From NCBI RefSeq assembly GCF_004135975.1, contig NZ_CP026538.1, positions 2,418,001-2,482,000 on the forward strand: DNA of 64,000 nt, given 5' to 3'. Below the pieces are notes generated by a model. The model saw only the letters and a program-made list of their open reading frames with translations. It was not told where the DNA came from and searched no databases. The DNA comes from Solidesulfovibrio carbinolicus. Lineage in GTDB: Bacteria; Desulfobacterota; Desulfovibrionia; Desulfovibrionales; Desulfovibrionaceae. This document shows positions 60,120 to 64,000 of this stretch, one piece after another. The translations under genes were made by a program, and so were the position numbers. The stretch's first letter is position 1; every line of letters starts with the position of its first letter.

Positions 60120-60908
60120 ATGCGTCATGGTCACATCCTTGCGACCGTGATAGTTTCCCGTCCCGTGGAACCGCAAACCCTGGCCCTGTCCATCCTGCCC
60201 CAGCCCGACGACGCCACCTGCGGGCCGACCTGCCTGCACGCCGTCTACGGCTACTACGGCGACCGCCTTCCCCTGGAGGACGTCATCGCCGAGGCTCCCA
60301 CCCTGCCTGGCGGCGGGACGCTTGGGGCCTATCTCGGTTGCCATGCCCTGCGGCGCGGCTACAAGGCCAAGCTCTACACCTTTGATCTTTCGGTCTTTGA
60401 CGTTACCTGGTTCGCCCCGGGCGTCGATCTGTCGGCCAAACTGACCGAACAGCTGGCCGTCAAAACCGGCCGCCGCCTGCATCAGGCCTCGGCTGCCTAT
60501 CTGGAATTCCTGCGCCTGGGCGGCCAGATTCGTTTCGAGGACCTGACCGCGCCGCTTATCCGCGACATATTAAAGCGCGGCCGGCCTATCCTGGCCGGCT
60601 TGTCCGCCACCTATCTCTACCGCACCCCGCGCGAACGCGACGTGGCCGGCAAGACCGTGTTCGACGACTTGCGCGGCAAGCCGTCCGGGCATTTCGTGGT
60701 GATAAACGGTTACGATTCCTCGGCCCGCGTCACCCATATCGCTGATCCGCTCCTGCCTAATCCCATCAGCCGCAGCCAGTACTACGAGGTGACGCTTAAC
60801 CATCTGGTCTGCGCCGTCATGCTTGGCGTCATCACCGACGACGCCAATCTGCTCGTGCTTTCGCCCCGAAAGAAAAGCCGGTCCGAGGACCGGCAAAGGA
60901 GTCTCTAG
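60120..60908 (+). CDS. C39-type cysteine peptidase-like protein
   Basis: About 262 residues, no signal peptide. The papain-fold C39 signature is complete: QPDDATCGPTCLHAVYGYYG (oxyanion Gln, catalytic Cys), GHFVVINGYD (His) near 200 and ADPLLPN (Asp) near 215. Unlike bacteriocin exporters it has no ABC or membrane part. No start has a good ribosome site: ATG 60120 is used, GTG 60147 or 60165 are serious alternatives and would suit the predicted promoter better. The TAG stop overlaps the next GTG (TAGTG). It heads a four-gene operon of ligases, so it may trim or release a peptide made by them. Confidence 0.8.
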   Translation: MRHGHILATVIVSRPVEPQTLALSILPQPDDATCGPTCLHAVYGYYGDRLPLEDVIAEAPTLPGGGTLGAYLGCHALRRGYKAKLYTFDLSVFDVTWFAPGVDLSAKLTEQLAVKTGRRLHQASAAYLEFLRLGGQIRFEDLTAPLIRDILKRGRPILAGLSATYLYRTPRERDVAGKTVFDDLRGKPSGHFVVINGYDSSARVTHIADPLLPNPISRSQYYEVTLNHLVCAVMLGVITDDANLLVLSPRKKSRSEDRQRSL

Positions 60909-62377
60909 TGTCTGTCTTGGTGGTCATGGAAAACCCCGAGGACTGTTCCCTGGTGTTTTCCGGCGTCGAACCCGTCGCCGCCCGCAGCTATCTGGCCGAC
61001 GAGGCCTTCACCGCCCTGCGCGGGGTCAAGATCATCAACCTCTGCCGCTCCTTCCGCTACCAGTCCATGGGCTATTACGTGTCGCTTCTGGCCGAAGCCC
61101 GGGGCCACAAGCCCATCCCGTCCATCACGGCCATTCAGGACATGAAGTCCGTGGGCATCATCCGGCTGGCTTCGGAAGAACTGGCCGAACTCCTGGAACG
61201 GGCCCTGGCCGACAGGCCCCAAGAAAAAATAAGCTTCTCCGCCTATTTCGGCAAAACGCCGGAAAAGGGCCTGGAACAACTCGCCTCGCGGCTGTTCAAG
61301 CTCTTTCCCACGCCGTTTTTGCGGGCCGACTGCAATTGGCAAAACGGCTGGCAGCTGCAAAACGTCTCGCCTCTGTCACTGCGCGATATCCCCGAGGAAG
61401 AGCGCGACTTTGCCGAGGCCGTGTCCACCGACTACTTCACCGGCAAAAAGCTCACCATCCCCAAGCGCCAAGTGAGCCGCTACGATCTGGCCATCCTCCA
61501 CGACCCCGAGGAGGAACGCCCGCCCTCCGACGCCCGGGCCATCAAGCGTTTCGTCAAGGCCGCCGAGAATCTGGGCCTTGGCGTCGAGATCATCACCCGC
61601 GAGGATTCCAACCGCCTCTCGGAATTCGACGCGCTGTTCATCCGCGAAACCACCAACGTGGACCACCACACCTACCGCATGGCCCGCAAGGCGGCGGCCG
61701 AAGGGCTGGTGGTCATCGACGACCCGGAATCCATCCTGCGCTGCTCCAACAAGGTCTATCTGGCCGAGGTGCTGTCGCGCCTGAAAATTCCGGCCCCGCG
61801 CACGGTCATCGCCCACTGCAAGAATATCGACCATATCCTGGAAGAGCTGCCCCTGCCCTGCGTGCTCAAGCAGCCCGACAGCGCCTTTTCCCAGGGCGTG
61901 GTGCTGGTGCGCGAATCCGACGCGCTCATGCAGGAGGCCAAGCGGCTTTTGTCCAAGTCCGATCTGGTCATCGCCCAGGAATACCTGCCCTCGGAATACG
62001 ACTGGCGCATCGGGGTGCTGGACAAGCGGCCGCTTTTTGCCTGCAAGTACTACATGGCCTCGGGCCATTGGCAGATCCTGCGCAAGGGCAAGTCCGGCAA
62101 GGACGTTTACGGGCGGGTGGAGACCCTGCCCGTGGCCAAGGCCCCCAAGAAGGTGGTCAACGCGGCGCTCAAGGCGGCGGCGGCCATCGGCGACGGGCTT
62201 TATGGCGTGGACCTCAAGCAAGTGGGAGACAAGGTCTACGTCATCGAGGTCAACGACAATCCCAACATCGACGCCGGCTTCGAGGATGAGGTGCTGCAGG
62301 ACGAACTGTACCTGCGCGTGGTGGAAGTCTTTCTCAAACGCATCGAACGCCGCAAAACCGGGAGCCTCAACGTATGA
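60908..62377 (+). CDS. RimK-like ATP-grasp ligase
   Basis: The product has 489 residues. The C-terminal half is an ATP-grasp domain: CVLKQPDSAFSQGVVLV (about 318), DLVIAQEYLPSEYDWRIGVL (about 355) and the magnesium-binding VIEVNDNPNID (about 445-455). The N-terminal 280 residues resemble a RimK-like pre-ATP-grasp region but are longer than in RimK. The family ligates amino acids, typically Glu, to a carboxylate with ATP; the acceptor is unknown. GTG start with AAAGGAG well spaced. It overlaps the peptidase stop and its own TGA overlaps the GCS2 start (ATGA). Confidence 0.87.
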   Translation: MSVLVVMENPEDCSLVFSGVEPVAARSYLADEAFTALRGVKIINLCRSFRYQSMGYYVSLLAEARGHKPIPSITAIQDMKSVGIIRLASEELAELLERALADRPQEKISFSAYFGKTPEKGLEQLASRLFKLFPTPFLRADCNWQNGWQLQNVSPLSLRDIPEEERDFAEAVSTDYFTGKKLTIPKRQVSRYDLAILHDPEEERPPSDARAIKRFVKAAENLGLGVEIITREDSNRLSEFDALFIRETTNVDHHTYRMARKAAAEGLVVIDDPESILRCSNKVYLAEVLSRLKIPAPRTVIAHCKNIDHILEELPLPCVLKQPDSAFSQGVVLVRESDALMQEAKRLLSKSDLVIAQEYLPSEYDWRIGVLDKRPLFACKYYMASGHWQILRKGKSGKDVYGRVETLPVAKAPKKVVNAALKAAAAIGDGLYGVDLKQVGDKVYVIEVNDNPNIDAGFEDEVLQDELYLRVVEVFLKRIERRKTGSLNV

Positions 62378-63639
62378 GCAAGGCCAGACCGCTTTTTTCC
62401 GCTTTTGGCGTCGAGATCGAATACATGATCGTGGACCGCGAGACCTTGGCGGTCCGGCCCATTGCCGACAAGCTGCTGGCTGCCGCCGCCGGCGTCCCGG
62501 ACGCCTCCGACGCCGAGCTGGGGCCGGTCACCTGGTCCAACGAACTGGTGGCCCATGTGCTGGAGATGAAGGTCACCAAGCCCGCCAAGACGTTAAAGGG
62601 CCTGTCCGCCGCCTTTGCCGCCAGCGTGGCCAAGGCCGAGGAACTGCTGGCTCCCCACGGGGCGCGCCTGCTCCCCACCGGCGCCCATCCCCTCATGGAC
62701 CCCTTCACGGAAACCGTGCTGTGGCCCCACGAGAGCAGCGAAATCTACAAGGCCTTCGACGCCATCTTCAATTGCAAGGGCCATGGCTGGGCCAATCTGC
62801 AAAGTATGCATCTGAACCTGCCCTTTGCCGGCGACGACGAGTTCGGCCGGCTCCATGCCGCCATCCGCGTGCTCATGCCCATCATGCCGGCCCTGGCCGC
62901 CTCCACGCCCATCCTCGACGGCAAGGCCACGCCCTGGCTCGACGCGCGGATGCGCCACTATGCCCACAACGCCGACCGGGTGCCGGCGGTCATGGGCGCG
63001 GTGATCCCCGAAGCCGTCTTTTCCATCGACGAATACCACGCGCGCATCCTGGAGCCGCTGTACCGCGACATCGCGCCCCTGGACCCCAAGGGCGTGCTTC
63101 GCGGCGATTTCCTCAACGCCCGGGGGGCCATCCCGCGTTTTGAGCGCTCCACCATCGAAATCCGGGTGCTGGACACCCAGGAATGCCCGGCCGCCGACTT
63201 CGCCCTGGCCGACGTCGTGGTCTCGGCCCTCAAGGGGCTGGTGGAGGAACGCTGGTCCACCTATGAGGAGCAAAAAGCCTGGGCCACAAGCGAGCTGGCC
63301 ACGATATTTAACGCCACCATCGAAAACGCCGGCCGGGCCAAGGTGCCCGACGAATACGCGCGCCTTTTCGGCGTCTACGCCCCGTCCTGGATTCCGGCCC
63401 GCGTCATCTGGCGGCGGCTGGCCATGAGTTCGTTGCCGACCATGGTCTTCGACCCGGACTGGGAAAAGAGTCTCGCTGTGCTGGTCGATCAGTCGAGTCT
63501 GGCCCGGCGCATCCTGGCCGCCGTGGACGGCGACTATCGCCCGACGACCATCCGCCGGGTCTACGGCCAGTTGGCCGATTGCCTGGAGCAAAACGAGCCC
63601 TTCAATGTCGGCATCCTGGGCGCTCCTTATTACCTGTGA
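62374..63639 (+). CDS. GCS2-type carboxylate-amine ligase (glutamate-cysteine ligase family)
   Basis: The product has 421 residues. FSAFGVEIEYMIVD near 8-21 has the metal-binding Glu pair of the GCS2/YbdK family, NLQSMHLNLPF near 145 the conserved His strand, and STIEIRVLDTQECP near 262 further metal ligands. Such enzymes form gamma-glutamyl or similar amide bonds with ATP. It is co-translated with the RimK-like ligase (four-base overlap), so two distinct ATP-dependent ligases act in one pathway. The product is not known to me. Its end overlaps the next gene by 35 bases. Confidence 0.87.
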   Translation: MSKARPLFSAFGVEIEYMIVDRETLAVRPIADKLLAAAAGVPDASDAELGPVTWSNELVAHVLEMKVTKPAKTLKGLSAAFAASVAKAEELLAPHGARLLPTGAHPLMDPFTETVLWPHESSEIYKAFDAIFNCKGHGWANLQSMHLNLPFAGDDEFGRLHAAIRVLMPIMPALAASTPILDGKATPWLDARMRHYAHNADRVPAVMGAVIPEAVFSIDEYHARILEPLYRDIAPLDPKGVLRGDFLNARGAIPRFERSTIEIRVLDTQECPAADFALADVVVSALKGLVEERWSTYEEQKAWATSELATIFNATIENAGRAKVPDEYARLFGVYAPSWIPARVIWRRLAMSSLPTMVFDPDWEKSLAVLVDQSSLARRILAAVDGDYRPTTIRRVYGQLADCLEQNEPFNVGILGAPYYL

Positions 63640-64000
63640 GCACGGCGGGGCCGACATCCCCGCCGCCTATGCCCCGCTTTTTGGCGACTGGCGCGACGCC
63701 TTGGCCAGCCACCGGGGGCACGATCTCGGCGCGTTGGAAACGGCCCGGAGGCTCGCCCGGGCCGCCCACGCGCCGCTGCTCTTTTCCACGACCAGCCGGA
63801 TGCTCGTGGACCTTAACCGTTCGCTCGGGCATCCCGGGCTTTTTTCCGAGGCAACCAAGGGCCTGCCGCGCCGGGACAAGGACGCCATCCTTGCCACGTA
63901 CTACCATCCCCACCGCGACGCCGTGGCCGCCCTCGTGGCCGAGGGGATTGATGCCGGGCGCACGGTGCTGCACATCGCCAGCCACAGCTTCACCCCGCGT
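63605..64000 (+). CDS. N-formylglutamate amidohydrolase-like protein (3' end outside window)
   Basis: The frame opens with ATG at 63605, inside the GCS2 end, and stays open to the window edge (132 codons). It begins MSASWALLITCEHGGADIPA, where CEHGG matches the SxEHGG zinc-site motif of the FGase/HutG family, then MLVDLNRSLGHPGLF near 75-89, the typical Asn-Arg-Ser motif, and HIASHSFTP at the edge with the conserved SHSF zinc histidine. Members hydrolyse formyl or acyl-glutamate amide bonds. The 35-base overlap with GCS2 ties it to the operon. The C-terminus is unseen. Confidence 0.85.
   Translation, partial: MSASWALLITCEHGGADIPAAYAPLFGDWRDALASHRGHDLGALETARRLARAAHAPLLFSTTSRMLVDLNRSLGHPGLFSEATKGLPRRDKDAILATYYHPHRDAVAALVAEGIDAGRTVLHIASHSFTPR

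Follow-up and report, generated by a model that had tools for sequence, protein, structure and literature searches.

What do two ligases and two hydrolases accomplish together when a bacterium keeps them in one operon? This question is raised by the end of a 64,000-nucleotide stretch of DNA from Solidesulfovibrio carbinolicus (contig NZ_CP026538.1, positions 2,418,001 to 2,482,000; this whole stretch is called the window below), where a four-gene operon on the + strand runs from 60120 to 64324, its last gene extending past the window end. The four genes are one real coupled, co-inherited and conserved unit, here also called the cassette. In window coordinates, they are:

60120..60908, + strand: C39-like cysteine hydrolase (Peptidase_C39_2), ATG 60120 to TAG 60908; single domain, without transporter part
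60908..62377, + strand: RLAN-RimK ATP-grasp ligase, GTG 60908 to TGA 62377; RLAN at residues 25-170, ATP-grasp half at about 190-485
62374..63639, + strand: GCS2 carboxylate-amine ligase of its own subtype, ATG 62374 to TGA 63639; Pfam GCS2
63605..64000 in the window, + strand: FGase-like (N-formylglutamate amidohydrolase family) hydrolase, from ATG 63605; first 132 of 239 residues, end at about 64324

Neighbouring genes overlap by 1 base (TAGTG, C39/RLAN), 4 bases (ATGA, RLAN/GCS2) and 35 bases (GCS2/FGase). A sequence-only reading of the window had reported these overlaps, the four families and a C39 peptidase free of any transporter part, and each of these points was confirmed. In Pfam, the C39-like protein scored 36.8 bits for Peptidase_C39_2 (cut-off 24) and 25.3 for Peptidase_C39 (22), the ligase 160.4 for RLAN (25) and 38.1 for RimK (21), and the GCS2 protein 96 (21). 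The FGase-like protein reached 62 bits on its in-window part (28.9) and 81.7 bits in full, the complete gene of 239 residues being taken from locus L004 (5606-6325; loci and genomes carry our L and G numbers). The C39-like gene has in-frame alternative starts at TTG 60114 and GTG 60162, of which GTG 60162 may be the start.

Spread and linkage of the four genes

Two peptide patterns derived from an RLAN-RimK alignment, run against genome_contigs (84,980 species), yielded at least 591 relatives; we retained and named the best 80, a selection that favours the window's own form. Most of these 80 loci are metagenome bins, and they come from Desulfobacterota, Proteobacteria, Planctomycetes, Bacteroidetes, Nitrospirae, Verrucomicrobia, Spirochaetes, one Acidobacteriota bin and candidate phyla. 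At 63 of the 80, at least 1000 bases upstream and 2600 bases downstream of the RLAN frame were present. C39 and GCS2 both occurred in 51 of these 63 well-flanked loci and all four genes in 36; a further 15 carried C39-RLAN-GCS2 without FGase, 5 carried RLAN alone and 7 were partial. The 17 loci from the window's own phylum, the window included, comprised 9 with all four genes, 4 without FGase, 3 with RLAN alone and 1 partial, C39 and GCS2 both being present in 13. One locus stands in both the named and the own-phylum set (L035 and L059, identical). The sequence-only reading had treated the four genes as a candidate single pathway, and their order does recur in many phyla; the homologues are not mostly scattered.

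All 14 genomes of the window's genus contain RLAN, and the four that we fetched from the 13 others all hold the four genes in order (L129-L132). Across the phylum, RLAN was found in 17 of 395 genomes. The GCS2 subtype occurred in 14 of them, every one an RLAN carrier, and the C39 subtype in 14, of which 13 had RLAN; for the phylum counts of C39, GCS2 and FGase at most 4 to 7 first-look candidates were scored per genome, which means that weak members may have escaped. The co-occurrence of C39 and RLAN has a hypergeometric P of 4e-20 (395 genomes, 17 RLAN carriers), a value computed as if genomes were independent, an assumption that does not hold. Three RLAN genomes (G123, G151, G186) are without C39, GCS2 and FGase and have the GNAT form described below. 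The pairwise distances of the four families correlate with r of 0.51-0.73, versus at most 0.21 in 499 permutations, and, as this was computed without species-tree control, shared ancestry explains part of the correlation.

Given these data, a chance association of unrelated genes within an operon, or a generic salvage of acyl-amino acids, has a negligible probability in our judgement. The loose attachment of FGase would suit such a reading, as would the loci with RLAN alone (5/63 top loci, 3/17 in the phylum). The gene order kept across many phyla, the co-occurrence and the correlated distances contradict it for C39, RLAN and GCS2.

Among the neighbour families of 102 loci, no other gene recurs beside the cassette. 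The next commonest family, an ATP-binding cassette (ABC) ATPase, was present at 9 of the 102, and three examples were import-type by eye; larger unlabelled clusters were, judged by examples, other frames of the cassette genes. Likewise, the 1 kb flanks on both sides of 77 cassettes contained no conserved frame of 20-75 codons; the broadest cluster consisted of three near-identical relatives. Together, these two results argue that the cassette has no linked carrier, precursor peptide or exporter.

Viral spread was considered and rejected, viral contigs giving two pattern matches and no relative. PADLOC-DB, searched for anti-phage defence, returned 0 families for the four proteins at E <= 0.01. 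A plasmid of Legionella adelaidensis (L028, 1-3232) carries, in cassette order, RLAN-RimK, GCS2 and FGase; its RLAN gene spans the start of the 9 kb circular record. No C39 was found in this record, and, judged from the annotated end of dapF and the match position, about 170 bases are left ahead of the RLAN gene, so no C39 gene fits there.

In the window, fliM lies upstream of the operon (Pfam), and downstream follow, by eye, a sigma-54-type regulator, an aminotransferase and branched-chain-type ABC transport genes. A scan of the operon found no promoter, and 6 terminator-like sites versus a shuffled mean of 4.4.

Catalytic parts and their nearest relatives

The Gln, Cys, His and Asp of the C39/papain site, which we take to be catalytic, are invariant in 79 of 79 aligned rows. 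For an AlphaFold2 model of the C39-like protein (predicted local distance difference test score 94.1), the predicted fold appears equally close to the phytochelatin synthase Alr0975 and to C39 proteases, and the phytochelatin synthase among these matches has been solved as an acyl-enzyme with glutathione. The fold and the Gln/Cys/His/Asp site are common to the cassette enzyme and the C39 double-glycine peptidases of ABC exporters. In contrast to these, the cassette enzyme lacks a transporter part and is longer, with 248 residues counted from GTG 60162 versus about 140 for the matched C39 domains.

C39 proteases cut double-glycine leaders and ATP-grasp ligases make graspetides, and the four genes might accordingly serve a ribosomally made peptide or small carrier protein, with the C39-like enzyme removing the leader and the ligases acting on the peptide. 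We regard this as very improbable. The C39-like gene is neither fused to an ABC exporter in Pfam nor beside a recurrent one among the neighbours of the 102 loci, and the lack of a conserved short frame around the 77 cassettes nearly refutes a linked precursor.

The extended N-terminus of the ligase corresponds to a named Pfam domain, RLAN (PF14401). The ATP-grasp half of the ligase is folded like RimK and retains Arg64, Arg189 and Asn262, the poly-Glu contacts of Pseudomonas aeruginosa RimK. The closest folds include RimK, also in complex with RpsF (5zk6), and ArgX/LysX. The family cut-offs of RimK were not reached (TIGR00768, 69.3 vs 143.4 bits; PRK10446, 23.4 vs 331), nor was that of the glutathione synthase equivalog PRK05246 (21 bits vs 272), and TIGR03103, the synthetase of N-acetylglutaminylglutamine amide (NAGGN), gave no match to the window protein at E <= 0.1. 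We also considered RLAN as a duplicated pre-ATP-grasp domain, as suggested by the secondary structure of the model, and dropped this idea at hhalign probabilities of 6% and 2%.

A quick RLAN tree places 83 of its 89 rows, among them the window form, in one set (Shimodaira-Hasegawa-like approximate likelihood ratio test, 97). Phylum labels change 27 times on this tree, where the least possible is 15 and the shuffled mean 49.8 (10 rows unlabelled), which indicates a mix of descent and possible transfer. On the P. aeruginosa plasmid pZYPA1927 (L024, 1-9494), a solo RLAN-RimK gene lies in an acidic amino acid setting, with a Glu/Asp ABC transporter, gamma-glutamyltransferase and asparaginase on the other strand about 2 to 7 kb away. 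At L044 (G228:C6, 5187-8691), RLAN-RimK is split into two overlapping frames, with GCS2 open and a partial FGase match, a state that is due to sequencing error or decay. The longest end branch of the tree (3.8) belongs to L025 (Aeromonas caviae NZ_AP026896.1), a 4.9 Mb record filed as a plasmid, where a divergently oriented GNAT gene stands beside RLAN-RimK.

The GCS2 protein did not reach the subfamily or equivalog cut-offs (TIGR02050, 54.3 vs 176.4 bits; EgtA, 14.7 vs 370.8). Similarly, the full FGase-like protein matched no NCBIfam family at E <= 0.1 and did not reach the HutG cut-off (TIGR02017); its nearest solved structure is 2odf, Atu2144 (E 3e-21). FGase is the loosest member of the cassette. 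In two single cases its slot is varied: at L107 the slot is filled by a divergent FGase (PF05013, E 9e-19) whose gene overlaps the end of GCS2, and at L045 an AstE/AspA-type deacylase adjoins GCS2 on the other strand. Both the FGase and the AstE/AspA-type families take their names from the cleavage of N-acyl acidic amino acids. Outside the cassette, the FGase subtype lies beside a proteasome-like gene, possibly Anbu, at L134 (G343:C1, 6664-8193; PF00227 at 19.8 bits, below the cut-off of 22.4), in a genome where the other cassette subtypes were not found, and in G325 beside a gene resembling cytochrome c peroxidase by eye. These two settings have no theme in common.

The GNAT sister form and the candidate product

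Loci without GCS2 frequently carry a GNAT-family acyltransferase. Among 84 full-flank loci (L035/L059 counted twice), a GNAT was found within 3.5 kb in 8 of the 15 without GCS2 versus 1 of the 69 with it (Fisher P 1e-6), using a profile built from the Azospirillum and Tistrella proteins. This enrichment suggests that RLAN-RimK stays while GCS2 and GNAT exchange. In Azospirillum, a fusion of GNAT with a C39-like (DUF3335) domain directly precedes RLAN-RimK, with a close relative in Tistrella, and at L043 the GNAT is fused to RLAN-RimK itself. Of the eight GNAT loci, L025 has its GNAT on the other strand and L114 has it 2.3 kb away. The C39-type part occurs in both the GCS2 and the GNAT form, though not in every GNAT locus, and the GNAT-form rows L043, L114 and L119 lie inside the 83-row RLAN set. 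Judging from these sequences, GCS2 and GNAT may be two alternative ways of capping an amine. A short contig (L125, G135:C85; 3167-3901, 802-1758, 3-821) shows the cassette-subtype C39 without RLAN; this gene shares its strand with an Acetyltransf_6 (GNAT) gene and with an ATP-grasp gene truncated at the contig edge. A TetR-like gene (by eye) and one further gene lie between them, and this arrangement is perhaps a third form of the cassette idea.

What, then, might the operon make? On the families present, we see an even balance for and against the proposal that this one operon serves the synthesis and recycling of a small N-capped glutamate-type peptide in the cytosol, with substrates that we infer. 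RLAN-RimK would activate a carboxylate with ATP and join an amino acid to it, as in RimK/LysX chemistry, while GCS2 would place a gamma-glutamyl-type cap, or a first unit, on an amine; in the sister form, the GNAT acyltransferase would take this step. The C39-like enzyme would attack the product via a cysteine acyl-enzyme, leading to hydrolysis or transpeptidation, like phytochelatin synthase on glutathione, and the FGase-like enzyme would free Glu, or a similar acidic amino acid, from the acylated product. Two ligases, two hydrolases and no linked exporter suggest a compound whose level is raised and lowered, which may serve as a store, as a metal/redox ligand or as a solute under stress. More tentatively, and somewhat below an even balance, we propose a new small capped peptide in which RLAN-RimK works with interchangeable caps (GCS2 with ATP or GNAT with an acyl donor) and a phytochelatin-synthase-like enzyme recycles or polymerises the product. 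The sequence-only reading had the four genes build, trim and recycle a gamma-glutamyl or poly-amino-acid compound or a protein tail; the coupled unit stood up to analysis, and the listed products stay putative.

Several observations weigh against the capped peptide. The FGase subtype was found in 12 of the 395 phylum genomes, 10 with and 2 without RLAN, and was not found at E <= 1e-10 in 4 of the 14 GCS2 carriers (G145, G226, G261, G301). By sequence, the cysteine enzyme is a C39 protein: both C39 families reach E <= 0.1 in 67 of 67 cassette members, compared with 7 of 67 for phytochelatin synthase (PF05023; best 0.001, the window member not among them), and phytochelatin synthase was not found in a PDB profile search at E <= 10. 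The residues that the ligase has in common with RimK are partly those of generic ATP-grasp catalysis and do not prove Glu. Leaving out two seed rows and one near-duplicate reduces the GNAT signal to 5/12 versus 1/69 (P 1.7e-4), and 7 of the 15 loci without GCS2 are also without such a GNAT. Finally, the Azospirillum GNAT (L026) passes the NCBI cut-off for RimI, a ribosomal-protein acetyltransferase (87.4 vs 86.4 bits), which favours protein modification and keeps a protein target in play.

Such a target would be expected if RLAN-RimK, with GCS2, extended a housekeeping protein, at its C-terminus or on a side chain, with a reversible tail that the C39-like and FGase-like enzymes trim. We consider this unlikely. 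The closest folds, RimK in its RpsF complex and ArgX/LysX, which act on a carrier protein, fit it, as do the RimI-like GNAT and the absence of linked small-molecule genes among the neighbour families. Nevertheless, no target protein is linked to the cassette and the RimK family cut-offs were not reached; to our knowledge, moreover, GCS2 and FGase families act only on small molecules. A pairing of ligase and peptidase, as in the RimK/RimB pattern (excerpts of PMC12239564), also speaks for a protein tail. We prefer the small capped glutamate-type peptide because GCS2, FGase and the phytochelatin-synthase-like fold point to small molecules and because no protein partner is linked.

The question matters in that small capped peptides such as glutathione and NAGGN are important for redox balance and salt tolerance. 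The four cassette enzymes look soluble, and the occurrence of the cassette in many phyla, with RLAN universal in one genus (14/14) yet rare in its phylum (17/395), would indicate a metabolite or protein mark that these bacteria share and that has so far gone unseen.

Relation to known systems

Like the glutathione/phytochelatin route, the cassette pairs a GCS2-family ligase with an ATP-grasp ligase, and its predicted papain-like hydrolase fold appears to tie with Alr0975. GCS2 might accordingly make gamma-Glu-Cys or a similar dipeptide to which RLAN-RimK adds a third residue, the C39-like enzyme then polymerising or trimming this thiol peptide for metal or redox handling. This scheme strikes us as quite improbable: recurrent redox or metal genes are missing from the neighbourhood, FGase is left without a role and the sequence similarity to phytochelatin synthase is weak. 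Moreover, we searched GSH-S_ATP in 20 genomes, 19 of which had some match. Among 12 proteobacterial RLAN carriers, 11 had a separate glutathione-synthetase match at E <= 3e-66 and L068 had none; leaving aside L119 (GNAT form) and L110 (no GCS2 in the locus), the strong match was present in 9 of the 10 with GCS2. The cassette is therefore unlikely to be the glutathione source in those proteobacteria. With the NCBIfam glutathione models also far below cut-off, the sequence-only view that plain glutathione synthesis fits poorly is borne out. The sulfate reducer L052 had a weak GSH-S_ATP match only (E 1e-5). In the window genome, one GSH-S_ATP match (27.9 bits, cut-off 23) falls in a gene outside the cassette, the single GCS2 and the single FGase match are the cassette genes, and PF04262 is absent; a second RimK/GSH-S-type ATP-grasp match lies in a 342-residue frame (G000:C1:1886792-1887355). 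Unlike the glutathione/phytochelatin route, then, the cassette falls short of the subfamily cut-offs, has an extra FGase and mostly coexists, in the proteobacterial carriers tested, with a separate synthetase match.

According to excerpts of PMC12239564, RimK and RimB are a ligase and a peptidase acting on ribosomal protein S6. The cassette likewise has a RimK-fold ATP-grasp half and a ligase paired with a peptidase; it adds the RLAN domain and a second ligase, GCS2, and the aspartic protease is replaced by a cysteine hydrolase and an FGase-type one. NAGGN biosynthesis in P. aeruginosa, as outlined in the available parts of PMC8070244, arranges a GNAT, a ligase and a peptidase around an N-capped dipeptide (Ngg, AsnO and the peptidase). 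The sister form likewise pairs a GNAT with an ATP-grasp ligase, once as a fusion, and at times has a peptidase domain. However, its proteins score far below the TIGR03103 cut-off of 569 bits (L026 36, L043 23.6), no AsnO gene recurs in cassette loci, and the window form has GCS2 where the sister form has the GNAT. RimK/RimB, NAGGN and the glutathione-to-phytochelatin route each appear to fit parts of the window's set, and by the tests made it would be a member of none.

A general prediction of operons with amide ligases, GNATs and papain-like peptidases was reportedly made by Iyer 2009. In the portions available of two later papers, linked ATP-grasp, COOH-NH2 ligase and GNAT genes, seen in multiple instances, are credited to that work (PMC4431377), and DUF3335, a C39-like family, is described as often fused to GNATs, with the same source cited (PMC10318531). 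The sequence-only reading had called the pathway undescribed, and for its parts this does not hold, RLAN being already a named Pfam domain and GNAT-DUF3335 fusions being in print (PMC10318531, in part). It may hold for the whole: no paper on the four-gene set was found in searches of an open-licence library that did not include Iyer 2009, and the excerpts of PMC2922099 and PMC4431377 do not name it. With the predicted operons, as those later excerpts convey them (PMC4431377, PMC10318531), the cassette shares the general scheme of linked peptide ligases, GNATs and peptidases.

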